Source: Streptomyces umbrinus (lineage in GTDB: Bacteria > Actinomycetota > Actinomycetes > Streptomycetales > Streptomycetaceae). Taken from it: a DNA stretch of 64,000 nucleotides. Shown here piece by piece: positions 31,187-62,672 of the stretch. Both the position numbers and the translations under genes were made by a program. Where the stretch lies: the NCBI RefSeq assembly GCF_030817415.1, contig NZ_JAUSZI010000002.1, forward strand, positions 7,998,001-8,062,000. Direction: 5' to 3'. The stretch's first letter is position 1. Each line of letters starts with the position of its first letter. The notes below the pieces were generated by a model, which saw only the letters and a list, made by a program, of their open reading frames with translations, was not told where the DNA came from and did no database searches.

Positions 31187-31203
31187 TGTTGAAATTTCGA
31201 ACA
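31187..31203. promoter_or_regulatory. candidate IclR operator upstream of iclR-type gene
   Basis: TGTTGAAATTTCGAACA is palindromic at all but one pair of positions and is the best single match to the shared motif GTTCGAAATTTCGAAC. It lies 19 bases upstream of the GTG start at 31222, suggesting autoregulation. Confidence 0.6.
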
Positions 31204-31221
31204 CAAGGGAGGGGGCCAGTT

Positions 31222-31995
31222 GTGGGACGCCTCGTACCTGCCGTAACCAGGGCTCTCGACATACTCGAGCTTTTCCTCGACGGAGACGGCACGCTCTCCG
31301 CCCCCGACATCGTGCGCAAGCTCCAGTTGCCGCGCACCACGGTGCATGAGCTGGTGACGACACTTGCCGCCCGTTCGTACATCACGCCCGTACCGGGTCA
31401 GCCGGGACGTTACCGGCTCGGGGTGCGCCCGTACCAGCTCGGCAGCCGTTATTCCGAGCAGCTCGACCTCGCCGCCGAGGGGCAGCAGGTCGCCCGGTCC
31501 GTCGCGGAGACCTGTGACGAGACCGTGCACGTGGCGATCCTGGAGGGCACGGACGTCATCTACATCGCCAAGGTCGACTCCACGCACGCCGTGCGCATGG
31601 TGTCCGCCGCGGGCCGCAGGCTGCCCGCCCACTGCACCTCCGTGGGCAAGATGCTGCTCGCCTCGCTCTCCGAGCCCGAGCTGACCTCGCGGATCCCCGA
31701 CGACGCCGACCTGGTCCGGATGACGCCGAACAGCATCACCGAGCCGGCCGCCCTGCGCGAGGCCCTCACCGAGATCCGCGCCCGCGGCATCGCGGTGGAG
31801 AGCCGCGAGTCGAACCCCGACGTCAGCTGTGTCGCCGCGCCGGTGCGCGACCGTACGGGCCAGGTCGTGTCCGCGCTCTCCATCTCCGTACCGATGATCC
31901 GCTGGAGCGACGAGCGCCGCGCCGAGCTGGAGCAGCTCGCCGTGAAGGGCGCCGCCGAGCTGTCGGAGCGGCTCGGGTACCGGAGCGTGGGATGA
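31222..31995 (+). CDS. IclR-family transcriptional regulator, 257 aa
   Basis: Winged helix-turn-helix at residues 5-65 (VTRALDILELFLDGDGTLSA, IVRKLQLPRTTVHELVTTLA) and IclR effector domain at about 75-250 (SVAETCDETVHVAILEGTDV, ESNPDVSCVAAPVRDRTGQV). The GTG at 31222 has GGGAGGGGG upstream; a TTG at 31189 is in frame but lies inside the operator-like palindrome. The stop overlaps the SMP-30 lactonase start (ATGA). IclR proteins commonly regulate sugar-acid and aromatic catabolism. The palindrome in front of this gene recurs at the importer/GH51, arabinanase and dehydratase promoters, making this the best candidate regulator of arabinan/arabinose use. Confidence 0.85.
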   Translation: MGRLVPAVTRALDILELFLDGDGTLSAPDIVRKLQLPRTTVHELVTTLAARSYITPVPGQPGRYRLGVRPYQLGSRYSEQLDLAAEGQQVARSVAETCDETVHVAILEGTDVIYIAKVDSTHAVRMVSAAGRRLPAHCTSVGKMLLASLSEPELTSRIPDDADLVRMTPNSITEPAALREALTEIRARGIAVESRESNPDVSCVAAPVRDRTGQVVSALSISVPMIRWSDERRAELEQLAVKGAAELSERLGYRSVG

Positions 31996-32861
31996 CGTAC
32001 GCATTCGAGGTGGCCGTCCAGGCGGAGGCGGCCCTCGGCGAAGGACCCACCTGGGACGCTGATGCCCAGCGGCTCATCTGGATCGACATCCTCGGCTCCC
32101 GGGTGCATATGTACGACCCGGTGTCCGGCCGAAGTGTGGTCATGGTGACCGAGCAGCATGTGGGGGCGGCGAAGCCGCGCGTGGGGGGTGGGCTGGTCGT
32201 CAACCTCCGTGACGGCGTGGGGCTTTACGGTCCCGGCGGGGGGTCCTCCAGCGGTCCGGGCGACTTTCGGTGGTTGTGGCGGGAGGTCGTTCCCGGCCGT
32301 CGCGCCAACGACGCGGCGGTCGCGCCCGACGGTGCCCTGTGGGCGGGCACCATGCGCTACGACGAGGCGCCGGGCGGCGGAACCCTTTCCCGTATCGCCC
32401 CGGACGGCACGGTCGAGACGGTCCTCGACGACGTGGCGGTGAGCAACGGCACGGGCTGGAGCCCCGACGGCCGCCTCATGTACTACATCGACTCGCCGAC
32501 CCGCCGGATCGACGTCTTCGACTTCGACGGCCGACGGGTCACCGGCAGGCGTGAGCTGGCGGTTGTCGAGGAGGGCGACGGGTTCCCCGACGGCCTCACC
32601 GTCGACGCCGACGGCTGCGTCTGGGTCGCCCTGTGGGACGGCGGCGCGGTCCGCCGGTACACCCCGGACGGGAAGCTGGACCGTGTCGTCGAGCTGCCGG
32701 TGCCGCGCCCCACGGCCTGCACGTTCGGCGGCGCCGACCTGACCGATCTGTACATCACGACAGCCCGTACGGGTCTGGAGGCGCCGCATCCGCTCGCCGG
32801 CTCGGTGCTCGTCGTCCCGGGCGCGGGCAAGGGCCTGCCCCAGCCCGCGTTCGCCGGCTGA
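31992..32861 (+). CDS. SMP-30/gluconolactonase-family lactonase, 289 aa
   Basis: A six-bladed beta-propeller lactonase. Metal-site motifs are all present: the N-terminal LGEGPTWD (Glu), GRRANDAAVAPDGALWAGTM (Asn), VSNGTGWSPDGRLMYYIDSP (Asn) and FPDGLTVDADGCVWVALWDG (Asp). Such enzymes open sugar lactones to aldonic acids. It is translationally coupled to the IclR gene and followed by a terminator, then the arabinose importer operon. In an oxidative arabinose or galactose route it would act between a sugar dehydrogenase (candidate at 60091-61101) and a sugar-acid dehydratase (61415-62575). Substrate assignment is inferred. Confidence 0.85.
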   Translation: MTYAFEVAVQAEAALGEGPTWDADAQRLIWIDILGSRVHMYDPVSGRSVVMVTEQHVGAAKPRVGGGLVVNLRDGVGLYGPGGGSSSGPGDFRWLWREVVPGRRANDAAVAPDGALWAGTMRYDEAPGGGTLSRIAPDGTVETVLDDVAVSNGTGWSPDGRLMYYIDSPTRRIDVFDFDGRRVTGRRELAVVEEGDGFPDGLTVDADGCVWVALWDGGAVRRYTPDGKLDRVVELPVPRPTACTFGGADLTDLYITTARTGLEAPHPLAGSVLVVPGAGKGLPQPAFAG

Positions 32862-32894
32862 CCTCGCGGCCGACGTTCCGCAAGCCCAACCGAA

Positions 32895-32935
32895 GCCCCC
32901 GTCCGATCGCCGGACGGGGGCCGCTGTTTTTGCGC
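32895..32935 (+). terminator. rho-independent terminator after the lactonase
   Basis: GCCCCCGTCCG (32895-32905) pairs with CGGACGGGGGC (32911-32921), 11-bp arms and a 5-base loop, followed by CGCTGTTTTT. It is one of the few hairpins in the window with a T-run. It separates iclR-lactonase from the importer operon. Confidence 0.85.
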
Positions 32936-32941
32936 GAACCA

Positions 32942-33009
32942 TTGACTAGTAAGCGCTTCCTATCTACGGTCCCGTTCGAAGTTGCGAGCATCCATCGAAA
33001 TCTCGAACA
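32942..33009 (+). promoter_or_regulatory. promoter with two IclR-type operators and a LacI-like palindrome
   Basis: TTGACT (32942-32947), 17 bases, then TACGGT (32965-32970) makes a vegetative-type promoter. Four bases after the -10 lies GTTCGAAGTTGCGAGC (32974-32989), and a second copy, ATCGAAATCTCGAACA, is at 32994-33009, with centres 20 bp apart. Between -35 and -10 sits AAGCGCTT (32951-32958), the core of LacI-type operators. The layout implies repression by an IclR dimer pair, plus a possible second sugar-responsive layer. It is a near twin of the arabinanase promoter at 50619-50686. Confidence 0.65.
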
Positions 33010-33021
33010 GTTAGGCAAGGT

Positions 33022-34380
33022 ATGGGACGACCTGGCCTGAATCGCAGGCAGATCCTGGCGGGACTGAGCGGGCTGACGGTCGCGGGCAGCCTCGGGTTCG
33101 CCGCACTCGGCACCGGGGCGGACGCGCTCGCCTCCGGTGCGGACACCCGCGTCCGCTACTGGAACCTCTTCAGCGGCGGCGACGGGTACAACATGATCGC
33201 GATGCTGGACGCCTTCCGTAAGGCGAACCCCGGCATCGACGTGAAGGACTCCACCCTCCAGTGGGGGAGCCCCTTCTACACCAAGCTGGCCATGGCGGCG
33301 GCGGGCAGCCGCGCACCCGACCTCGGCGTCATGCACCTGGGCCGGGTCCCCGGCTTCTCCCCGGGCCGGCTCCTGGACCCCTGGGACGCCGGCCTGCTGG
33401 CCAAGTACGGCGTGCGGGAGGCGGACTTCAACCCCGAGCTGTGGAAGCGAGCCGTCATCGACGGCACGCTGTACGCCCTCCCGCTCGACATCCACGTACA
33501 ACTCTGCTTCTACCGCAAGGACGTGCTGAAGAAGGCGGGCCTGCTCGGCGACGACGGCCGCATCGTGCCGGTCACCTCCGTCGACGAATGGTTCGACGTG
33601 CTCAAGGAGGCCAAGAAGGCCACCAGGAAGGGCCTGCAGACCATCGGCATGTGGTCCAGCGACCAGAACTTCCAGTGGTGGTTCTTCGTCGCCTTCTACA
33701 CCCAGCTCGGCGGCACCTGGTTCGACGACGCCAACGGCGAGGTCACCTTCGACACCGACAAGGCCACCCAGGTACTGGAGTTCCTGCGCCGGCACATCAC
33801 CGACGGGTACGTCGACCCGGGCTTCGCGGGCGGCGCGGGCGCCGAACAGTTCGTCAACGGCGGCCCCTTCGTCTGGGAGGGCAACTGGTCGGTGCCCGTC
33901 TTCGACAGCGCGAAGCTCGACTACGGTGCCACCCCGCTGCCGCCCGTCTTCGGCAGGCCGGCCACCCACGCCGAGTCGCACTCGTTCGTGCTGCCGCACC
34001 AGTCCGACCGCGGCGGAGCCGCCAACGAGGCCGCGCACCAGCTCGCCGCCCACATCGTCCGGCACGCCCAGCAGTGGGCGGGCGGCGGCCACATCCCCGC
34101 CTACACGCCCACCCTGTCCACGGACGCCTACGAGAAGCTGAACCCGCAGAGCGAGTACGTCTCGGCGATGGACCACCAGGCCACCGAGCCGAAGGTGTGG
34201 TTCGCCGGGTCCACCGGCATCCTGGCCCAGCGCGTCGGCCCGGTCGTCGTCTCCTCGACGATGGGCTCCGCCAAGCCGGACACCGCCGCCCGCCGGATGA
34301 GGAGCACGCTCACCGAACTGCTCGCCATGAAGAACCCCATGGACGGCCAAACCGCCGCGCAGGGAGGTGCGGTCGCATGA
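33022..34380 (+). CDS. ABC sugar importer, extracellular binding protein, 452 aa
   Basis: A family-1 (MalE-like) solute-binding protein. The N-terminus NRRQILAGLSGLTVAGSLGF has a twin-arginine-like signal, with no lipobox Cys seen. The mature region opens VRYWNLFSGGDGYNMIAMLD and carries typical features such as KANPGIDVKDSTLQWG and GPFVWEGNWSVPVF. The start is the ATG at 33022, just after the paired operators. It is followed by two permeases and a GH51 arabinofuranosidase in one operon, so the ligand is probably an arabino-oligosaccharide. No ATPase is coded here; in Streptomyces such importers commonly share the MsiK ATPase. Confidence 0.88.
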   Translation: MGRPGLNRRQILAGLSGLTVAGSLGFAALGTGADALASGADTRVRYWNLFSGGDGYNMIAMLDAFRKANPGIDVKDSTLQWGSPFYTKLAMAAAGSRAPDLGVMHLGRVPGFSPGRLLDPWDAGLLAKYGVREADFNPELWKRAVIDGTLYALPLDIHVQLCFYRKDVLKKAGLLGDDGRIVPVTSVDEWFDVLKEAKKATRKGLQTIGMWSSDQNFQWWFFVAFYTQLGGTWFDDANGEVTFDTDKATQVLEFLRRHITDGYVDPGFAGGAGAEQFVNGGPFVWEGNWSVPVFDSAKLDYGATPLPPVFGRPATHAESHSFVLPHQSDRGGAANEAAHQLAAHIVRHAQQWAGGGHIPAYTPTLSTDAYEKLNPQSEYVSAMDHQATEPKVWFAGSTGILAQRVGPVVVSSTMGSAKPDTAARRMRSTLTELLAMKNPMDGQTAAQGGAVA

Positions 34381-35318
34381 CGGCGACCAGTGCACAGACC
34401 GTCATCGCTCCGACGCGCGCGAGGACCGCCGCGGCCGGCGCCACCGTCCGCCGCAGGCAGGGCTTCCAGCACGGCGCCTGGTTCGTCGCCCCGTTCCTCG
34501 TCCTGTTCGCGCTGTTCGTGATCTGGCCGCTGTTGCGCGGCCTCTACCTCAGCTTCACGGACGCCAACATCTCCGGCGACGCCACGAGCTTCATCGGCCT
34601 CGACAACTACCGCGAGGCCCTGGACGACCCGCTGGTGTGGGAATCGCTGGGCCACAGCGCGTACTTCACGCTCCTGGTCGTGCCCTGCATCACGGTCCTC
34701 GCCTTCCTCCTCGCGATGCTGGCCCACCACATCGAACGCGTCACATGGCTGTGGCGGCTGTGCTTCTTCGCTCCGTTCCTGCTGCCGTCCACCGTCGCCG
34801 CCAACCTGTGGCAGTGGCTGTTCAACCCCGGCACCGGGATGATCAACCACGTCTTCGGCATCGAGACGGCGTGGCTGACCGACAAGTCGTACGCCATGCT
34901 CGCCGTCGTCGTCTGCACCCTGTGGTGGACGGTCGGCTTCAGCTTCCTGCTCTACCTCGCCGCCCTCCAGGGCATCCCCGCGCACCTCTACGAGGCAGCC
35001 AAGCTGGACGGCGCGAACGCCTGGCACCGCATGGTCCACATCACCCTGCCGATGCTGCGGAACATCACCGGCCTCGTCGTCGCCCTGCAGATCCTCGCCT
35101 CGCTCCAGGTCTTCGACCAGGCCGTGGTGATGATGGACTTCCTGCCCGGACCCGAGGGATCCACCAGGACGTTCGTGCAGTACACCCTCGAAGAGGGCTT
35201 CACCAGCTACCGCGTCGGCTACGCCTCGGCGATCTCCATCATCTTCTTCGTGATCATCGCGGCCGTCGCCCTCGCCCGGATGTGGCTGCTGCGCAACCGT
35301 GAGGAGGGCGGCCGATGA
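34377..35318 (+). CDS. ABC sugar importer permease (MalF-like), 313 aa
   Basis: Six transmembrane helices starting WFVAPFLVLFALFVIWPLLR. The inner-membrane-component loop EAAKLDGANAWHRMVHITLP is the EAA motif that docks the ATPase. The ATG at 34377 overlaps the binding-protein stop (ATGA). It pairs with the next gene as a heterodimeric channel for the arabino-oligosaccharide importer. Confidence 0.9.
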   Translation: MTATSAQTVIAPTRARTAAAGATVRRRQGFQHGAWFVAPFLVLFALFVIWPLLRGLYLSFTDANISGDATSFIGLDNYREALDDPLVWESLGHSAYFTLLVVPCITVLAFLLAMLAHHIERVTWLWRLCFFAPFLLPSTVAANLWQWLFNPGTGMINHVFGIETAWLTDKSYAMLAVVVCTLWWTVGFSFLLYLAALQGIPAHLYEAAKLDGANAWHRMVHITLPMLRNITGLVVALQILASLQVFDQAVVMMDFLPGPEGSTRTFVQYTLEEGFTSYRVGYASAISIIFFVIIAAVALARMWLLRNREEGGR

Positions 35319-36199
35319 GCACCGCCGCACAGATTCGCGTCAAGACGCGCAAGACGACCGGCAAGGCGCCCCGTAAGCCCTGGACGGCCAGCCAGATCGT
35401 GCTCACCCTCCTCGGCGCCGCCGTCTCCGCGGTGTTCCTCGCGCCGCTCGCCTGGGCGCTGTTCACCTCGCTCAAGTCGGAGACCGAGGCCGTCGAGGTG
35501 CCGACGCACTGGCTTCCGAAGGACTGGACGACCCAGGCATGGTCGGCGATCTTCGAGACCGGCAACATCACCAACTGGTTCGTGAACTCGCTGGTGGTCT
35601 CGGTGTGCGTGACAGCCGTGGTGCTGAGCGTCAGCGCACTCGCCGGATACGGCTTCGCCCGCACGGAGTTCCGCGGCAAGAACGCCCTTCTGGGCCTGGT
35701 CATGACCGGCCTGATGGTCTCGCCCGCGGTCCTCGGTGTCCCCCTCTTCACCACGGTCCAGCAGATGGGGATGGTCGACACCTACTGGGGCATGATCCTG
35801 CCGCAGTGCGCGCCCGCCGCGATGGTCTACATCCTCTACAAGTTCTTCCAGGGCATCCCGCGCGAACTGGAGGAGGCCGCCTTCATCGACGGCGCGGGCC
35901 GCTGGAGGGTCTTCTTCACCATCGTGCTCCCGCTCTCCCGCCCCTCCCTCGCCGCGGTCGGCATCTTCACCTTCATCGCGTCCTGGAACAACTTCCTGTG
36001 GCCCTACATGGTGACCAACAACCCCGACCTGATGACCATGCCGAACGGCATCGCGACCGTCATGAACTCCTACGGCATCCAGTGGGCCCAGCTCATGGCC
36101 GGCGGCCTCATGGCGGGCCTGCCCCTGATCATCGTCTTCGTCTTCTTCCAACGCCAGATAGTCACCGGCATCGCCCACACGGGCCTCGCGGGCCAGTGA
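35315..36199 (+). CDS. ABC sugar importer permease (MalG-like), 294 aa
   Basis: Six transmembrane helices, the first at about residues 30-50 (IVLTLLGAAVSAVFLAPLAW). The EAA loop is ELEEAAFIDGAGRWRVFFTI, followed by PLSRPSLAAVGIFTFIASWN, a MalG signature. The start overlaps the previous permease (ATGA). It completes the membrane part of the importer. Confidence 0.9.
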   Translation: MSTAAQIRVKTRKTTGKAPRKPWTASQIVLTLLGAAVSAVFLAPLAWALFTSLKSETEAVEVPTHWLPKDWTTQAWSAIFETGNITNWFVNSLVVSVCVTAVVLSVSALAGYGFARTEFRGKNALLGLVMTGLMVSPAVLGVPLFTTVQQMGMVDTYWGMILPQCAPAAMVYILYKFFQGIPRELEEAAFIDGAGRWRVFFTIVLPLSRPSLAAVGIFTFIASWNNFLWPYMVTNNPDLMTMPNGIATVMNSYGIQWAQLMAGGLMAGLPLIIVFVFFQRQIVTGIAHTGLAGQ

Positions 36200-36348: not shown

Positions 36349-37863
36349 ATGCAAGACAAGGCCCGCTTCACCCTCGACCCCGCCTTCACCATCGGCGAAG
36401 TCAACCCCCGTCTCTTCGGCTCGTTCGTAGAACACCTGGGCCGCTGCGTCTACACCGGCATCTTCGAGCCCGGCCACCCCGAGGCCGACGAAGCGGGCCT
36501 GCGGACGGACGTACTGGAACTCGTCCGCGAACTCGGCGTCACAGCCGTCCGCTACCCCGGCGGCAACTTCGTCTCCGGCTACAAGTGGGAGGACTCGGTC
36601 GGCCCGGCCGAGGACCGGCCGCGCCGGCTGGACCTCGCCTGGCGGTCGACGGAGTCCAACCGCTTCGGGCTCTCCGAGTACATCGGCTTCCTGAAGAAGA
36701 TCGGTCCGCAGGCCGAGCCGATGATGGCGGTCAACCTCGGGACCAGGGGTGTGGCGGAGGCCCTGGAACTCCAGGAGTACGCCAACCACCCGGCCGGCAC
36801 CGCCCTTTCCGAGCAGCGGATCGCCCACGGTGACAAGGACCCGTTCGGCATCAGAATGTGGTGCCTCGGCAACGAGATGGACGGCCCCTGGCAGACCGGC
36901 CACAAGACCGCCGAGGAGTACGGACGGGTCGCCGCCGAGACCGCCCGCGCGATGCGGCAGATCGACCCCTCCGTCGAACTGGTCGCCTGCGGCTCCTCCA
37001 ACCAGTCCATGCCGACCTTCGCCGAGTGGGAGGCGACGGTTCTGGCGGAGACGTACGACCTCGTCGACTACGTCTCCCTGCACGCCTACTACGAGCCCCA
37101 GGACGGCGATGTCGACTCCTTCCTGGCCTCCGCCGTGGACATGGAGTCGTTCATCGAGAACGTCGTCGCCACCTGCGACCACATCGGCGCGAGGCTCAAG
37201 TCGAAGAAGAAGATCAACCTCTCCTTCGACGAGTGGAACGTCTGGTACATGTCGCGGTGGCACGAGATCGAGAACTCCGCCGAGCGGGACTGGCCGGAGG
37301 CGCCCCGCCTGCTGGAGGACAACTACAGCGTCATGGACGCGGTCGTCTTCGGCTCGCTCCTCATCGCGCTGCTGCGGCACGCCGACCGCGTGACCGTCGC
37401 CTGTCTCGCCCAGCTCGTCAACGTCATCGCGCCGATCATGACCGAGCCGGGCGACCCGGCCTGGCGGCAGACGACGTTCTTCCCGTTCGCGCAGGCCTCG
37501 CGGTACGGGCGCGGGGAGGTTCTCGACGTACGGGTCGACTCGCCCACGTACGAGACGAGGAAGTACGGGGAGACCGACCTGCTGCACGCCACCGCCGTGC
37601 GCGCGGAGGACGGCTCGGTCACCGTCTTCGCGGTCAACCGCAGCCGGACGGAGGCGCTGCCGCTCGAAGTCACCCTGAACGGGCTGGAGTTGACCTCTGT
37701 CGTCGAGCACGGTGTGCTCGCGGACGCAGATCCGGACGCCCGCAACACGCTCGCCGAGCCGGACCGGGTCGCGCCGCGGGCCGTGCAGGGGACCACGCTC
37801 CAGGACGGCACCCTGGGGGCCGTCCTGGAGCCGCTGTCCTGGAACGTGATCCGGCTGGCCTGA
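36349..37863 (+). CDS. abfA: alpha-L-arabinofuranosidase, GH51, 504 aa
   Basis: An intracellular (no signal peptide) retaining arabinofuranosidase. The acid/base is E176 in WCLGNEMDGPW and the nucleophile E295 in LSFDEWNVWY, matching the family's spacing. Other conserved runs are FGSFVEHLGRCVYTGIFEPG, VRYPGGNFVSGYKWEDSVGP and YVSLHAYYEP. Length is standard. It releases L-arabinose from imported arabino-oligosaccharides. The start is the ATG at 36349 with AAAGGCGACC upstream, and it is the last gene of the importer operon before a strong hairpin. Control by the IclR-type operators at 32974-33009 is likely. Confidence 0.92.
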   Translation: MQDKARFTLDPAFTIGEVNPRLFGSFVEHLGRCVYTGIFEPGHPEADEAGLRTDVLELVRELGVTAVRYPGGNFVSGYKWEDSVGPAEDRPRRLDLAWRSTESNRFGLSEYIGFLKKIGPQAEPMMAVNLGTRGVAEALELQEYANHPAGTALSEQRIAHGDKDPFGIRMWCLGNEMDGPWQTGHKTAEEYGRVAAETARAMRQIDPSVELVACGSSNQSMPTFAEWEATVLAETYDLVDYVSLHAYYEPQDGDVDSFLASAVDMESFIENVVATCDHIGARLKSKKKINLSFDEWNVWYMSRWHEIENSAERDWPEAPRLLEDNYSVMDAVVFGSLLIALLRHADRVTVACLAQLVNVIAPIMTEPGDPAWRQTTFFPFAQASRYGRGEVLDVRVDSPTYETRKYGETDLLHATAVRAEDGSVTVFAVNRSRTEALPLEVTLNGLELTSVVEHGVLADADPDARNTLAEPDRVAPRAVQGTTLQDGTLGAVLEPLSWNVIRLA

Positions 37864-50618: not shown

Positions 50619-50686
50619 TTGACGCGCAAGAGGTTCGATTCTACGGTCCCGTCCGAAGTGGCGATCGATGGTCGAAATGTCGAACG
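50619..50686 (+). promoter_or_regulatory. arabinanase promoter with two IclR-type operators
   Basis: TTGACG (50619-50624), 17 bases, TACGGT (50642-50647). GTCCGAAGTGGCGATC starts at 50651 and GTCGAAATGTCGAACG at 50671, with the same +4 and +24 offsets from the -10 as in the importer promoter at 32942. The shared wording CTACGGTCCCGT shows common origin or strong shared selection. There is no LacI-like AAGCGCTT here. Confidence 0.65.
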
Positions 50687-50721: not shown

Positions 50722-51723
50722 GTGAGCCGCACCTCCCGTACCTCCCGTACTCCGCGCATGTCCCGCCGAACCGCCCTCCTCGCCCTCCTCACCGCCGTCC
50801 TGCTCGCCCTCATCCCGTCCTCGGCGTCGGCGTACCCCAACCCCGGCCGGGTCACCGGCTCCGTCGTCACCCACGACCCGACGATGATCCGCACCTCGTC
50901 CGGCCAGTACCTGCTGTACGCCACCGGCGGCGGCATCGCCAACAAGACGTCGTCCGACCGCACCGCCTTCAGCGCGGGTGCCGACGTCTTCTTCTCCCGG
51001 CCGAGTTGGTGGCGGAACTACTCCTCCGTCCCCGAGGCCTGGGCGCCGGACATCTCGTACCAGGGCGGCAAGTACCTGCTGTACTACTCCGTCTCGTCGT
51101 TCGGTTCGAACACGTCCGCCATCGGCTTCGCCACCTCCAGCACCGGCCAGCCCGGCAGCTGGACCGACCAGGGGACCGTCTACGCGTCCACCACCTCCAG
51201 CGACTACAACGCCATCGACCCGAACCTCTTCGTGGACGACGACGGCAAGTGGTGGCTGTCCTTCGGCAGTTGGTGGACCGGGCTCAAGATGATCCAGATC
51301 AACCCGTCGACCGGCAAGCAGCTCTCGTCGAACACGACGCGTTATTCGATCGCCTCCCGCCCGACCGGCACGAAGGCCGTCGAGGCGCCGTCGATCGTCA
51401 AACGGGGCGGCTACTACTACCTGTTCGCCTCGTACGACACCTGCTGTGCCGGCACCAGCTCCACGTACAAGGTCAAGGTGGGCCGGGCGACCAGTGTCAC
51501 CGGGCCCTACTACGACAAGAGTGGCGTCGCGATGACGAACAACGGCGGGACGCCCGTGTTGGAGTCGCACGGGCGGTACGTCGGGCCCGGCGGGCAGTCG
51601 ATCCTGGCGGACTCGGACGGGGACCTGATCGTGTACCACTACTACGACGGCCAGGACAACGGCACGCCCAAGCTCGGGATCAACCTGCTGAACTGGAGCA
51701 GTGGGTGGCCTGTGGCCTACTGA
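50722..51723 (+). CDS. secreted endo-arabinanase, GH43, 333 aa
   Basis: A five-bladed-propeller GH43 enzyme that cuts alpha-1,5-arabinan. Catalytic residues fit the family: base D52 (VTHDPTMIR), modulator D166 (NAIDPNLF) and acid E221 (KAVEAPSIV). SSVPEAWAPDISYQGGKYLL is a conserved run. A Sec signal at residues 1-37 (RRTALLALLTAVLLALIPSS, ending ASA) sends it outside. No binding module follows. The GTG start at 50722 has a perfect AAGGAGG. Paired IclR-type operators lie in front, so it should be co-induced with the importer and GH51 enzyme that handle its products. Confidence 0.92.
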   Translation: MSRTSRTSRTPRMSRRTALLALLTAVLLALIPSSASAYPNPGRVTGSVVTHDPTMIRTSSGQYLLYATGGGIANKTSSDRTAFSAGADVFFSRPSWWRNYSSVPEAWAPDISYQGGKYLLYYSVSSFGSNTSAIGFATSSTGQPGSWTDQGTVYASTTSSDYNAIDPNLFVDDDGKWWLSFGSWWTGLKMIQINPSTGKQLSSNTTRYSIASRPTGTKAVEAPSIVKRGGYYYLFASYDTCCAGTSSTYKVKVGRATSVTGPYYDKSGVAMTNNGGTPVLESHGRYVGPGGQSILADSDGDLIVYHYYDGQDNGTPKLGINLLNWSSGWPVAY

Positions 51724-53745: not shown

Positions 53746-54792
53746 TCACGAGTTGAACGAGTGGACCGTCGTCGAGCGGTACGTCTCGCCCGGCCTGAGC
53801 ACGGTCGACGGGAACTCCGGGCGGTTCGGCGAGTCCGGGAAGTGCTGGGTCTCCAGGCACAGCGCGCTGCCAGGACCGTATGCCTGGCCGCCGGGGCCCA
53901 CCAGGGTGCCGTCCAGGAAGTTGCCCGAGTAGAACTGCACACCGGGCTCGGTCGTCGCGATCCTCAGGGTGCGGCCGGAGACCGGTTCGCGGAGGGTCGC
54001 GAAGTGCTCGGGCCGCTGCGTGAGCCCCTTGTCGAGGACCAGGTTGTGGTCGAACCCCTTGGTGTGCAGGAGTTGTTGCTCGGGCCGGCCGAGATCCTCG
54101 CCGACGGTCTTCGGCGTACGGAAGTCGAAGGCGGTGCCCGTGACCTCGGCGAGTTCGCCGGTGGGGACGAGGCTCGCGTCGACCGGTGTGAAGCGGGACG
54201 CGGCGACCGTCAACTCGTGGTCGTGGACCGGGCCGCCGCTCTCGCCCGCCAGGTTCCAGTACACGTGGTTGGTGAGGTTGACGACCGTGGCCCGGTCGGT
54301 GGTGGCCGCGTAGTCGATGCGCCAGTCGCCGTCACCGGTGAGCGTGTACGTGACCTTCGCCGTCAGCGTGCCGGGGTAGCCCATCTCGCCGTCGGGGCTG
54401 GTGCGGCGCAGGACCAGGCCCACGTCGGAGCCGGAGGTGAACTCCTCCACGGCCCACACATGTTTGTCGAAGCCGTCGGGTCCGCCGTGCAGGTTGTTCC
54501 CGCCGTCGTTGACGGGGAGTCGGTGATCCTCGCCGTCGAGGGTGAACCTGCCGCCGGCGATGCGGTTGCCGTACCGGCCGATGACGGCGCCGAAGTACGG
54601 GCTGGACGCCTCGTACTCCTCGATCGTCCCGAAACCGAGCGACACGTTCGCGTACCGGCCGTGGCGGTCCGGGAGTTCGAGCGACTGGACGACTCCGCCG
54701 TACGAGAGGACCTTCAGCCGGGTGCCGCCGTTCTCCAGCGACCACCGGTGGACCTTCGTGCCGTCGGCGAGTGTTCCGAAAAGTTCCTTCAC
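53746..54792 (-). CDS. galM: galactose mutarotase (aldose 1-epimerase), 348 aa
   Basis: Interconverts alpha and beta anomers of aldoses such as galactose, arabinose or glucose. Conserved blocks are YFGAVIGRYGNRIAGGRFTL, NNLHGGPDGFDKHVW (catalytic His), NLTNHVYWNLAG and GFDHNLVLDKG; GVQFYSGNFLDG is near the end. The GTG at 54792 has AGGAC upstream; a Met in the reading upstream lies beyond the terminator hairpin at 54869 and is rejected. It is next to the ChvE-type importer and therefore probably prepares imported sugar for the dehydrogenase. Confidence 0.9.
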   Translation of the reverse strand: MKELFGTLADGTKVHRWSLENGGTRLKVLSYGGVVQSLELPDRHGRYANVSLGFGTIEEYEASSPYFGAVIGRYGNRIAGGRFTLDGEDHRLPVNDGGNNLHGGPDGFDKHVWAVEEFTSGSDVGLVLRRTSPDGEMGYPGTLTAKVTYTLTGDGDWRIDYAATTDRATVVNLTNHVYWNLAGESGGPVHDHELTVAASRFTPVDASLVPTGELAEVTGTAFDFRTPKTVGEDLGRPEQQLLHTKGFDHNLVLDKGLTQRPEHFATLREPVSGRTLRIATTEPGVQFYSGNFLDGTLVGPGGQAYGPGSALCLETQHFPDSPNRPEFPSTVLRPGETYRSTTVHSFNS

Positions 54793-54868
54793 GGTCGTCC
54801 TGTCTTCCAACTGTCTTACAGAGCTTGGCTGCTGCCGCGGTACGTAAAGAAGCCGTACACAGAGAAAT

Positions 54869-54901
54869 GGGGCCCCACGGGCATGCCGCCCGCGGGGCCC
54901 C
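54869..54901 (-). terminator. hairpin terminator at the end of the ChvE-type importer operon
   Basis: GGGGCCCC-A-CGGGC and GCCCG-C-GGGGCCCC pair as 13 of 14 bp around ATGCC. It is 10 bp after the permease stop on the minus strand and just upstream of galM. Confidence 0.8.
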
Positions 54902-54911
54902 ACCGAGAGCG

Positions 54912-56156
54912 CTAGGAACCGACCTTGCGCTTGTTCCACACGTCGAAGCCGACCGCCGCGAGGAGCACCAGGCCCTTGATGACCTGCTGCCAGTCGCTGC
55001 CGACGCCGACGAGGTTCATGCCGTTGTTCAGGACACCGAGGACGACACCACCGATGATCGCGCCGAGGACCGTGCCCACGCCGCCGCTCATCGACGCGCC
55101 GCCGATGAACGACGCGGCGATCGCCTCGAGTTCGAAGTTCACACCGGCCTTGGGCGAGGCCGCGTTGAAGCGGGCCGCGAAGACCAGACCGGCCAGCGCC
55201 GCGAGCATGCCCATGTTGAGGAAGACCAGGAAGGTGACCTTCTTGTCCCGCACACCGGACAGCTTCGCCGCGGGCAGGTTGCCGCCGATCGCGTACACGT
55301 GGCGGCCGATGACGGCGTTGCGCATCACATAGCCGAAGCCCACGACCAGGGCGCCGAGGATGATCAGCACCACCGGGGCACCCTTGTAACTGGCGAGCAT
55401 CATCGTCACCGTGAGCACGGCGGCGACCAGGGCCACGATCTTCAGCAGGAAGAGCTTGGCGGGCGGCACCTCCAGTGCGAACTCCTGCTGGCGCCTGCGG
55501 TCACGGACCTCCTGCAGCACCACGAACGCGATCACCGCGAAGCCGAGCAGCAGTGTGAGGTTGTGGTAGTTGGTGTCCGGGCCGACCTCGGGAAGGAAGC
55601 CGTTGGAGACGTCCTGCAGACCCTTGGGGAACGGGCCGATGGTCTGGCCCTCCAGGAAGATCTCGGTCAGACCGCGGAAGAGCAGCATGCCCGCGAGGGT
55701 GACGATGAACGAGGGTATGCCGAGATAGGCGATGAAGAACCCCTGCACGGCCCCCGCGGCGGCGCCCAGGAGCAGGCACATCACCACGGCCACCGGCCAG
55801 GCGATGTCGTGGTTGACCATCAGTACGGCCGCCACCGCGCCCACGAAGGCGGTGAGCGAGCCGACCGACAGGTCGATGTGGCCCGCGATGATGACGAGCA
55901 TCATGCCGATCGCGAGGATCAGGATGTAGCTGTTCTGCAGCACCAGGTTGGAGACGTTGCGCGGCAGCAGCAGGTCGCCGTCCGTCCACACCGCGAACAG
56001 CACCACGATCAGACCGAGAGCGATCAGCATGCCGTACTGCCGCATGTTGCGGCGCATACCGTCGATCATCAGCTGCAGCAGGCCGTCGCCCCCGGTCGAG
56101 TCGCCCTTGCCGGCGGGCGCCGGCGCGGGGGACTTGGCGGTCACGTTCGTGCTCAT
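54912..56156 (-). CDS. multiple-monosaccharide ABC importer permease (MmsB/GguB-like), 414 aa
   Basis: A ten-helix permease of the RbsC/XylH class (MLIALGLIVVLFAVWTDGDL, NSYILILAIGMMLVIIAGHI), with the signature GHIDLSVGSLTAFVGAVAAV and the C-terminal SMSGGVGTVLGAIIGGVVLG. The stop lies before a hairpin. It follows the ATPase gene by 5 bp. With the ATPase and ChvE-type binding protein it imports aldoses such as arabinose, galactose or xylose. Confidence 0.9.
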   Translation of the reverse strand: MSTNVTAKSPAPAPAGKGDSTGGDGLLQLMIDGMRRNMRQYGMLIALGLIVVLFAVWTDGDLLLPRNVSNLVLQNSYILILAIGMMLVIIAGHIDLSVGSLTAFVGAVAAVLMVNHDIAWPVAVVMCLLLGAAAGAVQGFFIAYLGIPSFIVTLAGMLLFRGLTEIFLEGQTIGPFPKGLQDVSNGFLPEVGPDTNYHNLTLLLGFAVIAFVVLQEVRDRRRQQEFALEVPPAKLFLLKIVALVAAVLTVTMMLASYKGAPVVLIILGALVVGFGYVMRNAVIGRHVYAIGGNLPAAKLSGVRDKKVTFLVFLNMGMLAALAGLVFAARFNAASPKAGVNFELEAIAASFIGGASMSGGVGTVLGAIIGGVVLGVLNNGMNLVGVGSDWQQVIKGLVLLAAVGFDVWNKRKVGS

Positions 56157-56161
56157 CGCTC

Positions 56162-57703
56162 TTACCTCTTGTCCTTCGTCATCTGGCGCATCAGCACTTC
56201 CTGCGTGGCCTCGGCCCGCGGGACCTCACCGGTCAGCCGTCCGGCGGCCATCGTGTAGATGCGGTCGCACATTCCGAGCAGTTCGGGCAGCTCGGAGGAG
56301 ATGAAGACGACCGCCTTGCCCTCGGCGGCCAGTTTGTCGATGACCGTGTAGATCTCGAACTTGGCGCCCACGTCGATCCCGCGCGTCGGCTCGTCCAGGA
56401 TCAGCACGTCCGGACCCGCGAAGATCCACTTGCTGAGGACGACCTTCTGCTGGTTGCCGCCCGACAGCTTGCCGACCGGTTCGAAGACCGTCGGCGCCTT
56501 GATGTTCATCGACTTGCGGAAGCGCTCGGCGACCTGCCGCTCCTCGTGCTCGTTCACGACACCGCGCTTGGCCACCTTCCCCAGAGCACTGAGGGAGATG
56601 TTGCGGTTGATCGTGTCGATGAGGTTGAGGCCGTAGTGCTTGCGGTCCTCCGTCACGTACGCGATCCCGTGCTTGACCGCCTCGGGCACGGTCTTCGTAC
56701 GGATCTCCGTACCGTCCTTGAGGACGGTGCCGCTCGCGTACCGGCCGTAGGTGCGCCCGAACACGCTCATCGCGAGCTCGGTGCGCCCGGCGCCCATGAG
56801 CCCGGCGATGCCGACGATCTCCCCGCGGCGCACCTGGATCGACACGTCGTCGACGACCTTGCGCTGCTGGTCGATCGGGTGGTGGACGGTCCAGTTGCGG
56901 ATCTCCAGGGCCGGAGCCGCGCCCACCTCCGTGTCGTGCGGGGTGCGCTCCGGGAAGCGGTGGTCGAGGTCGCGCCCGACCATGCCGTTGATGATCCGGT
57001 CCTCGGTGGTCTCCGCGGCCTTCACGTCGAGGGTCTCGATGGACCGCCCGTCGCGCAGGATCGTCACCGAGTCGGCGACCGCCTCGATCTCGTTGAGCTT
57101 GTGCGAGATGATGATCGAGGTGATGCCCTGGTCCTTCAGACCTCGGATGAGTTCCAGCAGCTTGCCGCTGTCCTCGTCGTTCAGAGCCGCCGTCGGCTCG
57201 TCGAGGATCAGCAGCTTCACCTTCTTCGACAGCGCCTTCGCGATCTCGACGAGCTGCTGCTTGCCCACGCCGATGTCGGCGACCCGGGTCTCCGGGTGAT
57301 CGCTCAGCCCGACCCGCCGAAGCAGTTCGGTCGCGTGCTTGAGCGTCTCGCTCCAGCTGATGAAGCCGCGCGTGGCGTGCTCGTTGCCGAGGAAGATGTT
57401 CTCCGCGATGGAGAGGTACGGCACCAGCGCGAGCTCCTGGTGGATGATCACAATGCCGTGCTGCTCGCTCGCCCGGATGTCCTTGAACTGGCAGGACTCG
57501 CCCTCGAAGAGGATGTCCCCGTCGTAGGTTCCGTGCGGATGGACGCCGGAGAGGACCTTCATGAGGGTCGACTTTCCGGCGCCGTTCTCACCGCAGATGG
57601 CGTGGACCTCGCCCGGCCGGACGCTCAGGGAGACGTCCGACAGCGCCTTGACGCCGGGAAAGGTCTTGACGATCGAGCGCATTTCCAGGACGGGTCCCGC
57701 CAT
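56162..57703 (-). CDS. multiple-monosaccharide ABC importer ATPase (MmsA/GguA-like), 513 aa
   Basis: A double-cassette sugar ATPase. First Walker [15 protein letters not shown] (about residues 38-51), first signature [20 protein letters not shown] with [15 protein letters not shown]; second cassette with [20 protein letters not shown], the degenerate Walker A usual for the class, and [20 protein letters not shown]. The ATG at 57703 has GGAAGG upstream. It lies between the binding protein and permease genes. Confidence 0.92.
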
Positions 57704-57735
57704 GGTCGTGCCTTCCAATCCCTAGGGGGTGGCGG

Positions 57736-58846
57736 TTAGTTGACCGCGTCGGCCTTGACGTAACCGGAGTCGATGACGACCTTCTGGTAGTTGGTCTTGT
57801 CGACGCTCACCGGGGTCAGCAGGTACGCGGGCACGACCTTCGAGCCGTTGTTGTACGACTTGGTGTCGTTGATCTCGGGCTTCTTGTCGTTGAGCACCGA
57901 GTCGACCATGTTCGCGGCGACCTTCGCGAGCTCGCGGGTGTCCTTGAAGACGGTCGCCGTCTGCTCGCCCCGCCTTGATCGACTTCAGCGACGCGACCTC
58001 GGCGTCCTGGCCGGTGACGACCGGCATCGGCTTGCTCTTGCCGTAGTCGTCCGACTTCAGCGCCGACAGGATGCCGATGGAGATGCCGTCGTACGGCGAG
58101 AGCACCGCGTCGACCTTGCCCTTCCGGTAGGCCGCGGTCAGGAGCTCCTCCATGCGCTTCTGGGCGGTGCCACCGTCCCAGCGCAGCGTGGTGACCTGGG
58201 TCAGCTTCGTCTGGCCCGACTTGACCACCAGCTGCTTCTTGTCGATGAAGGGCTGCAGGACCTTCATCGCGCCGTTGAAGAAGTACTGGGTGTTGTTGTC
58301 GTCGTTCGAACCCGCGAAGAGCTCGACGTTGAACGGGCCCTTCTTGGAGCCGTCCTTCAGACCGAGCTTCTCGACGATCTGGGTGCCCTGCAGCTCGCCG
58401 ACCTTCTCGTTGTCGAACGACGCGTAGTAATCGACGTTCGGCGAGTTGAGGATCAGGCGGTCGTAGGAGATGACCGGGATCTTGGCGTCCTTGGCCTGCT
58501 GGAGAACGTTGTCGAGCGACTTGTTGTCGATCGCCGCGATGATCAGGGCGGAGACGCCCTGCGTGATCATGTTCTCGATCTGCGAGACCTGGGTGTCCGG
58601 GTCGTCCTCGCCGTAGGCCAGCTTGGTCTTGTAGCCGGCGGCCTTCAGGTTCTTCTCCACGTTGGCGCCGTCGGCGATCCACCGCTCGGAGGACTTCGTC
58701 GGCATCGCGATGCCGACGGTGGAGCCCTTGGCGTCTCCCTTGGTGTCCTCACTGCCGCCGTCGCTGTCCTGCCCGCAGGCGGAGAGGGTGAGGGCCAGGG
58801 AGGCGGCCGCGGCTATGGCGGAAAGCGCTGCTTTGCGATTGCGCAT
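57736..58846 (-). pseudogene. ChvE-type multiple-monosaccharide-binding lipoprotein, frameshifted near 57970
   Basis: A periplasmic-binding-protein-like lipoprotein: signal [20 protein letters not shown], lipobox LSAC, mature [58 protein letters not shown]. Register is lost at GCGGGGCGAGC (about 57968-57975). Removing one G restores [20 protein letters not shown] and the standard ending [10 protein letters not shown] with TAA at 57736-57738. The ATG at 58846 has GGAAG 6 nt upstream. As written, the last 80 or so residues are replaced by an Arg-rich stretch. Since the ATPase and permease are intact, a sequencing slip is likely. Confidence 0.8.
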
Positions 58847-58979: not shown

Positions 58980-59948
58980 TTATGAGGGAATGTCAAACCG
59001 TTGGAGTGCGCCCGGAAGCCGGGAGCCGAGCGGCGCCATGTCGCCGTCCGCCCCGTGCCGCGCGAGCAGGTCCAGGGCGAGCCGGCCGCGCCGCACCCTT
59101 TCCCGGGCCGTGGACAGCGTCACGTCCCGCATGTGGTGGCCGTACGGGTAGATCCCGGGAGCCTTGGACAGGCCGAACTTCAGGTACAGCGGGGCGCCGC
59201 GGCGGATCAGCTCGGCGACCTCGTACATGCGCACATACCCGCCGAGATCGTCGGGGGCCTCGATGTACATGTCCATGGGGGCTGCACTGACCCGGCGGAT
59301 CTCCGTCAGGTGGTCGAGCGTGAGATCGCTCGGCACGTTGATGGAGTCCCCGCCCAGTTGCTCGTACACGGCGTACGCGGCCGGGTTGACCGGGCCTATC
59401 AGCGCCGAGACCTTCAGTGTCGTGTCCGCCGGGATGATCCCGGCGACCCGGGCCCGGTGCAGGGTCCAGAGCACGCCTTCGTCAGCCACGAGGAGGCACT
59501 TTACGCCCAACTCCGTTGCACGGATGGCGTCTTCGAGACAACCTGCGACCGCATCGTGACCACGGGCGCGCAGCCCGCCGCCCCGCGAGTCGGTCCGGGT
59601 CGAGCCGCCGATGTCCCACGTGCCGCGCGGGCCCGTGAAGAGGCAGAGCTCGATGTCGCGCTCTTCGGTGGCCTCGACCATCTCGGTGATCTCGGCGTCG
59701 GTCAGCATCCAGACACCGCTGCCCTGGCTGATCCGGTGGATCGGCACATCGAGCCGCGAGGACTCCTTGAGGACCACGGCGAGCGCCTCCGGCCCCTCGC
59801 ACGAGGGGATCTCGGTGCGCCAGCGGCCGCCCTCCGGGAAGGCGTGCGGTGAGGCGTCGGCGGGGGAGAGGGCGGGCGCGCCCAGGCCGAGCGCGGCGAG
59901 CGCCTGCTCACCGGGTCGACGGGCCGCCTTGGGAGAAGCGTCGGTCAC
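58980..59948 (-). CDS. U32-peptidase-like/TIM-barrel protein of unknown function, 322 aa
   Basis: No well-characterised family is recognised. The sequence alternates strands and helices as in a beta/alpha barrel: [120 protein letters not shown]. The INVPSDLT and MYIEAPDD strands resemble U32 peptidase-like barrels; acidic residues (E in YIEAPDD, D in NVPSDLT) could bind a metal. It lies between the ChvE-type importer and a sugar dehydrogenase. An isomerase, aldolase or lyase step in sugar catabolism is as likely as peptidase activity. Confidence 0.6.
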
Positions 59949-60022: not shown

Positions 60023-60062
60023 GTACGCCGGTACGGAGCGTCAGGTCTCCGTACCGGCGTAC
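60023..60062 (-). terminator. 16-bp perfect hairpin between dehydrogenase and barrel-protein genes
   Basis: GTACGCCGGTACGGAG (60023-60038) and CTCCGTACCGGCGTAC (60047-60062) with an 8-base loop. It follows the dehydrogenase stop on the minus strand, so the barrel-protein gene probably has its own promoter; a half-site-like TGTTCGATG lies at 59987-59995. Confidence 0.8.
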
Positions 60063-60090
60063 GGATCGGGGGCGGCCGGTACCGCGGGCC

Positions 60091-61101
60091 CTAGGGCCGC
60101 AGCAGCACCTTGCCGACCTTCGGGTCGCCGGACCCCACCAGCTCGATCGCGTGAGCGAACTCGTCCAGCGGCAGCTCGTGCGTGACCAGCGGAAGAGGAT
60201 CGAGGAGACCGGCACCGAAGACCCGCACCGTGTGCGCCCAGGCCTCCGGCGGCGCCCCGAACACGGTGTGCACCTCCAGCTGCCGTACGACGAGATCGGT
60301 GGGGTCAAGTCCCTCGGCACCCGGAGCCGGGATCCCGGTGAGGACGAGCCGTCCGCCGCGCCGCAGCAGCGAGGCGGCCGTGGTCGCGGCGGTCGCCGAC
60401 CCGGCGGTCTCGATGACCACGTCGAAGTCGTCGGGCAACTCCTGGTCCCGGGTACGGAAGTCGGTCGCGCCGAACGTCTTCGAGAGCTCCTCGCGGTCCG
60501 GGCGGGTGCCGACCACGAGCAGCTCCGAGGGCGAACCCGCCTTCAGGAACTGCACGGCGAACATGCCGAGCGTCCCGGTGCCGACGACGGCCACCCGCTC
60601 GCCGGGCCGCGCGTTCGCCTTGAGCGCCGCCGCCGCGATGCAGGCCGCGGGCTCGAGCAGCGCCGCCGCCGTCAGATCGGCGTCCTCCGGCAGGATGTGC
60701 AGCAGCCGGGCGGGCAGCGTGAGCGTGGTGGCCATGGCGCCGGGCTGGGTGAAGCCCGTCTCCTCGTAGCCGGCCGTGCACAACGTTGTCTCGCCCTCGT
60801 GGCAACGGTCGCAGACCTGGCAGTTGCGGAAGCCCTCACCGACCACCTTGCGGCCCACCAGGCCCTCGGGGACCCCGGGACCGACCGCCTCGACCGTGCC
60901 GGACCACTCGTGCCCCGGCGTCAGCGGATAGCGGACGTACCCCTCGGGCCGGTTGCCCTGGTACACCTCGCGGTCACTGCCGCAGATACCGCTCGCGTGA
61001 ACCCGCACGAGGGCTTGGCCCGCGGCGGGCGCCACGGACTCGTGGGGGACCAGCCGGTGCTCGCCGGGGCCCTCGATCACGACGGCCTGCGCGGCGCTCA
61101 T
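60091..61101 (-). CDS. zinc-dependent medium-chain dehydrogenase (sugar/polyol type), 336 aa
   Basis: A GroES-like plus Rossmann enzyme. The catalytic zinc site is C40 (SGICGSD) and H64/E65 (PGHEW). The structural zinc cysteines are C94, C97, C100 and C108 (NCQVCDRCHEGETTLC). The nucleotide-binding glycines lie in VAVVGTGTLGMFAVQFLKAG. The ATG at 61101 has GGAG upstream. Close relatives oxidise polyols, L-threonine or aldoses. Between a sugar-acid dehydratase and a sugar importer, oxidation of an aldose (arabinose, galactose) is the favoured reading. Confidence 0.85.
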   Translation of the reverse strand: MSAAQAVVIEGPGEHRLVPHESVAPAAGQALVRVHASGICGSDREVYQGNRPEGYVRYPLTPGHEWSGTVEAVGPGVPEGLVGRKVVGEGFRNCQVCDRCHEGETTLCTAGYEETGFTQPGAMATTLTLPARLLHILPEDADLTAAALLEPAACIAAAALKANARPGERVAVVGTGTLGMFAVQFLKAGSPSELLVVGTRPDREELSKTFGATDFRTRDQELPDDFDVVIETAGSATAATTAASLLRRGGRLVLTGIPAPGAEGLDPTDLVVRQLEVHTVFGAPPEAWAHTVRVFGAGLLDPLPLVTHELPLDEFAHAIELVGSGDPKVGKVLLRP

Positions 61102-61414
61102 GACTGCTCCGTGTCGGTGAGGCGGGTCAAGTCCACGGCGGTGCCGCGTGCCGGGGCTTCGAAGGGGTGGCCGGCACCCCTTCGATCCGCCGCGGCGCTG
61201 CTCGACCACAGCGGCGCGTTGCGGCCGTGCCCGAACACTCCGCGGGAAACGTGGCGGTGAAGCCGTGAGCGGTTGTCCCTCGCCGCCGGCGCCGCCGCGG
61301 TGGAGCCGCACAGGGCACAGCCGTGCACGCGCCCGGGCGCGCGGTACTCCCCTGGACCTCGGCGGGTCCGCTCGGCCGTCCGCGGCCCTTGGCCCACCCC
61401 GGTGCCGGGCGCCG
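61102..61414. other. 313-bp intergenic stretch, no gene seen
   Basis: Between the dehydrogenase start and dehydratase stop. GC-rich with CGCGG-type short repeats. One CCGAACA half-site of the IclR-type motif occurs near 61231-61237. Short open readings here lack ribosome sites and natural codon use. It probably holds the dehydrogenase promoter. Confidence 0.5.
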
Positions 61415-62575
61415 TCACTTGCCACCGCCCTTCGGCTTGCGCTGCTCCCAGCCGTCCGCCCACAGGTCGAAGCGGGCCTGCTGCTGAGGGAACTCGGCCG
61501 CCGCGTCCGTGTCCAGCTCGACGCCGAGACCCGGCTCGTGCGACAGCTCGAAGTAGCCGTCGACGACCTGCGGGGCACCCTTCACGACCTTCTTGATCTC
61601 CGCGTCCGCGAAGTCGTTGAAGTGCTCCAGGATCTTGAAGTTCGGGGAGGTGAAGCCGACCTGGAGCGAGGCGGCGGTGAGGACCGGGCCGCCCACGTTG
61701 TGCGGCGCCACGAGTACGTAGTGGGCCTCGGCGGTCGCCGCCAGCTTCCGGGTCTCCCAGATGCCGCCGATGTGGCCGACATCCGGCTGGATGATGTCCA
61801 CGGCCTGGCTCTCGAAGAGCTCGCGGAACTCGATGCGGTCGTGGATGCGCTCACCGGTCGCGACCGGGATGTCGACCTTCGCCGCCACCTTCTCCAGCGC
61901 CTTCAGGTTCTCCGGCGGGACCGGCTCCTCCAGCCAGGCCGGCTTGAAGGGCGCGAGCTCGCGCGCGAGACGGATCGCCGTGGCCGGCGAGAAGCGGCCG
62001 TGCATCTCCAGCATCAGCTCGGCCTCGGGGCCGATCGCGTCCCGGACCGCCTCGATCAGCGAGACCGCGTACAGCGACTGCTCGTGGTCGAGCTCGAAGT
62101 GACCCGTCCCGAACGGGTCGATCTTCAGCGCCTTGTACCCGCGCGCGACGACCTCCTGAGCGGCCTTGTGGTAGGCCTCCGGAGTGCGCTCCGTGGTGTA
62201 CCAGCCGTTCGCGTACGCCTTCACCCGGTCGGTGACCTTGCCGCCCAGCAACTGCCACACCGGTACGCCCAGGGCCTTGCCCTTGATGTCCCAGCACGCC
62301 ATCTCGATCACGGCGATGCCGGACATCACGATCTCGCCGGCCCGCCCGTAGTCGCCGTACTTCATGCGACGCACGAGGTCCTCGACAGCGAAGGGGTCGG
62401 AACCGAGAATGTGGTTGGCCTCCGCCTCCCGCAGATAGCCGAGCAGCGCGTCGGTGTGCCCCAGCATGCGGGTCTCACCGACTCCGGTGATGCCCTCGTC
62501 GGTGTGCACCTGGACATAGGTCAGGTTGCGCCACGGCGTCCCGACCACGTGTGTGCTGATTCCGGTGATGCGCAC
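61415..62575 (-). CDS. galactonate-type sugar-acid dehydratase (enolase superfamily), 386 aa
   Basis: A mandelate-racemase/enolase-superfamily enzyme. The catalytic base is in the KxD motif K151-I-D153 (ALKIDPFG). Metal ligand candidates are E190 (MLEMHGRF), E216/E217 (WLEEPVPPE) and E242 (TGERIHDR). The opposing base lies in PDVGHIGG with the PHNVGGPV loop. Such dehydratases convert aldonates (D-galactonate, gluconate or pentonates) to 2-keto-3-deoxy acids. Its promoter carries two IclR-type operators, linking it to the arabinose genes. L-arabonate-type or galactonate substrates both fit; no 2-keto-3-deoxy-acid kinase/aldolase is in the window. Confidence 0.86.
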   Translation of the reverse strand: MRITGISTHVVGTPWRNLTYVQVHTDEGITGVGETRMLGHTDALLGYLREAEANHILGSDPFAVEDLVRRMKYGDYGRAGEIVMSGIAVIEMACWDIKGKALGVPVWQLLGGKVTDRVKAYANGWYTTERTPEAYHKAAQEVVARGYKALKIDPFGTGHFELDHEQSLYAVSLIEAVRDAIGPEAELMLEMHGRFSPATAIRLARELAPFKPAWLEEPVPPENLKALEKVAAKVDIPVATGERIHDRIEFRELFESQAVDIIQPDVGHIGGIWETRKLAATAEAHYVLVAPHNVGGPVLTAASLQVGFTSPNFKILEHFNDFADAEIKKVVKGAPQVVDGYFELSHEPGLGVELDTDAAAEFPQQQARFDLWADGWEQRKPKGGGK

Positions 62576-62604
62576 GGAAATTGCCCCTTGTGGCTCTACG
62601 GCTC

Positions 62605-62672
62605 TGTTCGAAATTTCGTCACACGTTCGAAATGCTGGCCAGACAGTAAGGATTCGGCGGCGGCAGTGTCAA
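62605..62672 (-). promoter_or_regulatory. dehydratase promoter with two IclR-type operators
   Basis: On the minus strand TTGACA (62672-62667), 17 bases, TTACTG (62649-62644), then two operator copies. The promoter-distal one, at 62605-62620 on the + strand, is TGTTCGAAATTTCGTC; the other is CGTTCGAAATGC at 62624-62635. Half-sites are 19 bp apart. This matches the -10/operator geometry at the importer and arabinanase promoters. Confidence 0.65.

Follow-up and report, generated by a model that had tools for sequence, protein, structure and literature searches.

Near-copies of one palindrome stand ahead of four separate gene groups in a 64,000-nt stretch of the Streptomyces umbrinus genome (the window, in which the positions of these groups are given), raising the question of which protein reads the sites and which genes that protein controls. 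The first group opens with a gene for an IclR-family regulator (31222..31995, + strand), a candidate reader of all the operators. Its product matches HTH_IclR and IclR_C, both above cut-off, and its solved relatives are mostly named IclR-family. By comparative evidence the regulon is real, larger than first stated and tied to this IclR protein, which in all likelihood would be a repressor dedicated to an L-arabinose regulon that extends across the genome. The reading is built on computed sites, their spacing and conservation, the families of the target genes and co-occurrence among genomes.

Each operator consists of two 16-bp palindromes in tandem, 35 bp overall. Operator A (31168-31183 and 31187-31202; 31168..31202, + strand) lies ahead of the iclR-lactonase pair, with a predicted -10 hexamer, TAGCCT, ending 2 bp upstream. 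Operator B (32974-32989 and 32993-33008; 32974..33008, + strand) is downstream of TTGACT-17-TACGGT and ahead of the importer-GH51 operon, operator C (50651-50666 and 50670-50685; 50651..50685, + strand) is downstream of TTGACG-17-TACGGT and ahead of a GH43 gene, and operator D (62640-62625 and 62621-62606 in gene orientation; 62606..62640, - strand) is downstream of TTGACA-18-TACTGT and ahead of a dehydratase gene. The spacing within the pairs is exactly 19 bp (31168/31187, 32974/32993, 50651/50670, 62606/62625). A preliminary description of this DNA had listed seven palindromes. All of them exist, and the positions 31187, 32974 and 50651 were exact, but four were off by one (32994, 50671, 62605 and 62624 should read 32993, 50670, 62606 and 62625), and an eighth half site at 31168 was overlooked. 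This half site is weaker than its partner at 31187, however, it stands 19 bp from it, and therefore all four loci share one tandem architecture. All four also show a palindrome of the GTYCRA-N4-TYGRAC type with tandem centres 18-22 bp apart. The part of PMC8222616 that we consulted describes the motif class NGTYCRAW4TYGRACN and a tandem spacing of 18-22 nt for IclR proteins, and ties this spacing to tetramer binding.

Could such matches arise by chance? Shuffles, a reversed-pattern control and simulated sequences rule this out. With up to three mismatches, a single 16-mer hit five places in the window, where 0.03 were expected, and none of 100 shuffles had as many. In the 12.4-Mb genome it matched 26 places, compared with one for the reversed control. 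Single palindromes were dropped as regulon markers because they are too loose, and one of the 26 places, close to a LacI gene, lacks a tandem match. We instead used a tandem matrix built from 80 A, 72 B and 30 D sites (one of the 30 being the window's own; C sites were excluded), which scores the window sites at 49.4 (A), 42.8 (B), 37.5 (C) and 49.5 (D). No non-overlapping position in the rest of the window scores 8 or more, in agreement with the earlier remark that nothing of similar quality occurs elsewhere in it, and in 200 simulated Markov sequences of 64 kb, one of 25.6 million positions scores at least 20.

The preliminary description saw a regulon seemingly spread over 31 kb, and named a genome scan as the test, with hundreds of unrelated promoters as the unfavourable outcome. 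With up to three mismatches the tandem pattern found six places in the own genome and none for the control, all six ahead of arabinose-linked genes. Three are operators A, B and C, and the other three, more than 1 Mb from the window loci, rule out a local 31-kb regulon. The place at 960230 (L132) is ahead of a protein with an AbfB domain, and that at 9377472 (L131) is ahead of a GH51-type arabinofuranosidase with CBM_4_9. The third, at 11227107, precedes a gene for a GH27 protein that among solved structures is closest to 3a21 (1061.5 bits), which we take to be the S. avermitilis beta-L-arabinopyranosidase; a further operator at 11226892 (score 28.4) faces a divergent GH127 gene. An enzyme paper for the S. 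avermitilis beta-L-arabinopyranosidase is among the works cited in the portion of PMC8424115 available to us. Operator D was not caught by the tandem pattern, yet it has one of the matrix scores given above (49.5). Separately, a ninth operator candidate (G000:C2:3198114, equivalent to L141:8115) scores 30.4 in one orientation and 19.9 in the other, has a poor partner palindrome, and lies ahead of a GH43 gene adjoining a GH43-ricin lectin gene.

To describe the targets more broadly, pattern-match places were sampled and 37 proteins at further tandem sites were run against Pfam, with L144, L147 and L259 assigned by position or tblastn instead. GH51-type, GH43, GH62, GH54, GH127, GH27 or AbfB domains account for 32 of the 37, and the remainder includes one importer protein, two IclR proteins and, at L247, a methyltransferase at the distal flank of a site bordered on its other side by GH43. 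GH43 and GH27 include enzymes of other specificities, so the arabinose-releasing activity of these proteins is a prediction. As judged by homology, the targets serve the release of L-arabinose, its import and its catabolism. The arabinose link that had been suggested thus holds, but arabinan alone is too narrow a theme for the families listed.

Conservation in relatives follows the same lines. In 80 Streptomyces loci retrieved with the IclR protein as query, a counterpart of operator A lies ahead of iclR in every one. A second site scoring at least 20 is present in 74 of them, about 1.7 to 9.5 kb from iclR. No more than 500 bp from this site, an importer binding-protein gene starts in 51 loci and a GH51 gene is found in 20 (importer or GH51 together, 71/80); in two more (L043 and L081) the GH51 gene is 1.4 to 2.1 kb away. 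Dehydratase upstream sites were checked in 37 of 40 orthologs (G008, G037 and G052 were left out). Counterparts of operator D were found in all 30 of the best loci, own included, and score at least 40 in five of the seven others, for a total of 35 out of 37. Even among IclR loci that have diverged further (20 loci, at 69-84% identity), each iclR gene is preceded by an operator-like pair, with best-orientation scores of 13 to 41.

The sites also travel with the protein. Among 61 Streptomyces genomes, 42 have an ortholog of the IclR protein and 19 have none. Tandem-pattern matches occur in 35 of the 42 and 0 of the 19 (p=2e-10), and the reversed control pattern has no match in any of the 61. Orthologs of the dehydratase are likewise found in 40/42 against 0/19 (p=7e-14), U322, an orphan protein encoded behind operator D, in 41/42 against 0/19, lactonase orthologs (at least 66% identity) in 39/42 against 0/19, and GH43 matches in 16/42 against 0/19. 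These counts exclude dehydratase matches at 41-44% identity (G010, G047, and second matches in G019, G053 and G059) and lactonase matches at 51-52% identity (G023, and second matches in G036 and G048), and include a G008 dehydratase split over two contigs and partial U322 matches in G015 and G050. Operator conservation, this co-occurrence and the target genes together support the earlier proposal that the sites form the regulon of the neighbouring IclR. Where a genome has both iclR and the dehydratase gene (40 genomes), the two are side by side and divergent in nine, within 45 kb in 22 and on different contigs in seven. In compact loci (L220, L223 and L234), lactonase and iclR are on one side, and the opposite side holds dehydratase, dehydrogenase, U322 and ChvE. 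As a separate observation, two genomes have genes for pectate lyase and pectinesterase in the vicinity of iclR-lactonase (L220:11403-12224 and L234:5103-7923).

What route would the regulon serve? Downstream of iclR is a gene for an SMP-30/SGL lactonase (31992..32861, + strand), a predicted pentonolactonase whose best solved relative is 7plb, presumably a xylonolactonase. Operator D precedes an enolase-superfamily (MR_MLE) sugar-acid dehydratase (61415..62575, - strand) that is galactonate-dehydratase-like and predicted to be an L-arabinonate dehydratase. Behind it on the same strand are a zinc-type medium-chain dehydrogenase (60091..61101), a candidate L-arabinose 1-dehydrogenase, U322 (58980..59948), a ChvE-GguA-GguB-type monosaccharide importer (54912..58846) and, as the last gene of the run, an aldose 1-epimerase (53746..54939). 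L-arabinose isomerase (AraA_N) had no match in the own genome, which fits oxidative L-arabinose catabolism; the same search was positive in 5/14 control genomes. AraA_N also had no match in 39 of the 42 IclR-bearing genomes. It is present in G004, G013 and G015, and both G004 and G015 lack a lactonase ortholog as well. An oxidative pathway is thus represented by a candidate dehydrogenase, lactonase and dehydratase without an isomerase match, with activities predicted from homology.

Alternatively, the catabolic arm could serve D-galactose or galactonate, with the arabinose enzymes co-controlled since both sugars derive from arabinogalactan. L-arabinose and D-galactose share the same C2-C4 configuration, the dehydratase scores 303.6 bits as a galactonate dehydratase, short of the cut-off of 311, the operator D importer is of a multi-sugar type, and GH27, a family with alpha-galactosidase as the name of its Pfam model, recurs as a target. 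We consider this unlikely, as L-arabinose-releasing enzymes occur in the other glycosidase families found behind the sites and the own GH27 protein is closest to 3a21.

Promoter geometry bears on how the IclR protein would act. Eight own promoters were examined, and in seven of them a gap of 2-3 bp separates the best -10-like hexamer from the start of the operator; in these seven the -10-like and -35-like hexamers are 17-18 bp apart. The -35 reads TTGAC in seven promoters and TTGCCC at A, and at the GH27 promoter the gap from -10 to operator is 13 bp. An operator starting 2-3 bp past the predicted -10 makes repression the likeliest mode. IclR proteins are capable of either mode, according to the title of a review among the references of PMC12772271, and the protein could activate its target units, however, we regard this as improbable because in the seven promoters the operator occupies a polymerase-blocking position.

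We hypothesize that the IclR repressor would bind, probably as two dimers, to both palindromes of an operator, their 19-bp separation, about two helical turns, placing them on the same face of the DNA. Bound protein would cover the transcription start and block RNA polymerase. Release would be triggered by L-arabinose or, likelier given the family, by a product formed early in its oxidation (arabinonolactone, arabinonate or 2-keto-3-deoxy-arabinonate). Derepression would then switch on the extracellular and intracellular enzymes of L-arabinose release and two importers, as well as the oxidative route of dehydrogenase, lactonase, dehydratase and possibly U322. The promoters, mode of control, effector and pathway are in this sense predictions from sequence.

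Several observations weigh against an IclR-controlled L-arabinose regulon of this form. The promoter assignments are consensus guesses. The second site is missing in 6/80 loci, and while L026 and L092 are short records, L053 and L076 hold a GH51 gene without it, which counts against the constancy of operator B; L078 does have a second site, with no importer or GH51 gene nearby. Counterparts of operator C were found in 7/19 GH43 loci, own included, and therefore GH43 is a less stable target. The dehydratase operators are weak in G004 (20.3) and G015 (16.9), two of the genomes with AraA_N, as are the sites ahead of iclR in L229 and L230 (scores of 16 and 13). The protein at one further site (L240) has a CBM35 domain alone. 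The strict tandem pattern has no match in seven IclR-bearing genomes, two of which are those of L229 and L230, iclR and the dehydratase gene are megabases apart in 2/40 genomes (G052 and G057), and the co-occurrence counts and p values ignore kinship among the 61 genomes. AraA is also without a match in 15/19 IclR-lacking genomes (p=0.19), making isomerase absence alone weak evidence, and it was rejected as a specific marker. Finally, the part of PMC12772271 that we consulted reports that another Streptomyces, on xylose, shows raised SACTE_1901 (an arabinofuranosidase) and SACTE_1900 (the permease next to it), which would speak against our interpretation if this pair is orthologous to the GH51 operon.

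That a LacI-type xylan regulator (BxlR-like) reads the palindromes, with IclR as a bystander, is highly improbable: the same part of PMC12772271 gives CGAANNTTTCG at Streptomyces xylanase promoters and attributes it to a LacI protein, the window half sites contain CGAAATTTCG, and one own single-palindrome match (3209905) is near a LacI gene, though without a tandem match, but the fixed 19-bp tandem, the placement ahead of iclR in 80/80 loci, the co-occurrence with IclR (35/42 against 0/19) and a Pfam search that found no GH10 or GH11 xylanase domain among the 37 proteins at further sites all favour the IclR protein.

Read as an IclR regulon, the system resembles those with tandem operators (KdgR-type; the NGT-12-ACN class, as far as PMC8222616 was available) in family domains, motif class, 19-bp spacing and sugar-acid theme, and differs in that its targets are L-arabinose-releasing families across the genome. 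The string "arabin" appears nowhere in the main text of PMC8222616, whose supplements, outside our reach, may list such a regulon. The LacI-type AraR (PMC10766802) likewise controls how arabinose is released, taken up and catabolised, and the same control theme is seen in the bifidobacterial arabinose regulators (PMC5928203) and the NrtR-type AraR of Bacteroides (PMC4666351), as far as the consulted parts of these papers go. All belong to other protein families, and the IclR protein, unlike them, is tied to an oxidative route without an isomerase match. No IclR arabinose regulon in Streptomyces was found among the open-licence papers listed, a scope that leaves aside subscription papers and the supplements of PMC8222616. 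New here are an arabinose theme that runs through the genome, a tandem architecture common to the four window loci, and U322 as a strict companion protein. The IclR protein is thus a candidate master switch for arabinose-releasing enzymes in Streptomyces, which are plant-litter degraders and enzyme producers, and the regulon offers a possible answer to how streptomycetes without L-arabinose isomerase use arabinose.

The dehydrogenase, lactonase and dehydratase steps are held in common with the oxidative (Weimberg-type) L-arabinose pathway. Here, however, the dehydratase belongs to the enolase superfamily, whereas a described L-arabinonate dehydratase is IlvD/EDD (PMC4973301, in the part seen), and an orphan TIM barrel stands in place of a recognised keto-deoxy-arabinonate dehydratase. 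Neither of these usual enzymes, nor a recognised semialdehyde dehydrogenase, was seen in a search confined to the operator D gene run. The compact loci likewise showed no known enzyme for the keto-deoxy-arabinonate step among their identified genes (a subset of open frames was tested). U322 has no Pfam or NCBIfam match above cut-off and is named hypothetical or U32 peptidase in databases. Its structure model is a TIM barrel of medium confidence (pLDDT 75), and fold searches returned generic TIM barrels (aldolases, RuBisCO-like proteins, CutC and one U32 peptidase). From its gene context we propose U322 as a candidate enzyme for the 2-keto-3-deoxy-arabinonate step, giving this conserved protein a functional context. 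We tentatively speculate, with somewhat more doubt than confidence, that U322 may found a TIM-barrel family that cleaves or dehydrates 2-keto-3-deoxy-L-arabinonate, and that with the enolase-type L-arabinonate dehydratase it may form an undescribed IclR-controlled oxidative pathway replacing the isomerase in about two-thirds of Streptomyces. Between the dehydrogenase and U322 genes, a weak operator-like motif was observed at L229:15984 (21.0), L230:7064 (18.8) and L220:5730 (10.9), and its window counterpart (between 60091 and 59948) scores below 8.

The other window genes under these operators are as follows. Operator B precedes a sugar ABC importer (33022..36199, + strand) made up of a solute-binding protein (33022-34380), a likely permease without a family match (34367-35302) and a permease (35315-36199), followed by a GH51 alpha-L-arabinofuranosidase (36349..37863, + strand; NF051901, 737.8 bits with a cut-off of 625) whose near relatives in the PDB are intracellular enzymes. 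The spacer of promoter B (32951-32958) holds AAGCGCTT, which is the same in 9/11 relatives compared, with L021 and L037 differing, and is possibly a LacI-type site adding a second layer of control. Operator C precedes a GH43 endo-1,5-alpha-L-arabinanase-like protein (50722..51723, + strand), assigned by family match and predicted to be exported from a signal-like N-terminus read by eye. In the operator D importer, the ChvE-like protein (57725-58846, - strand) matches its family to about position 250 of 324 and then continues into an unrelated tail, which likely reflects a frameshift or assembly error near the 3′ end of the gene.

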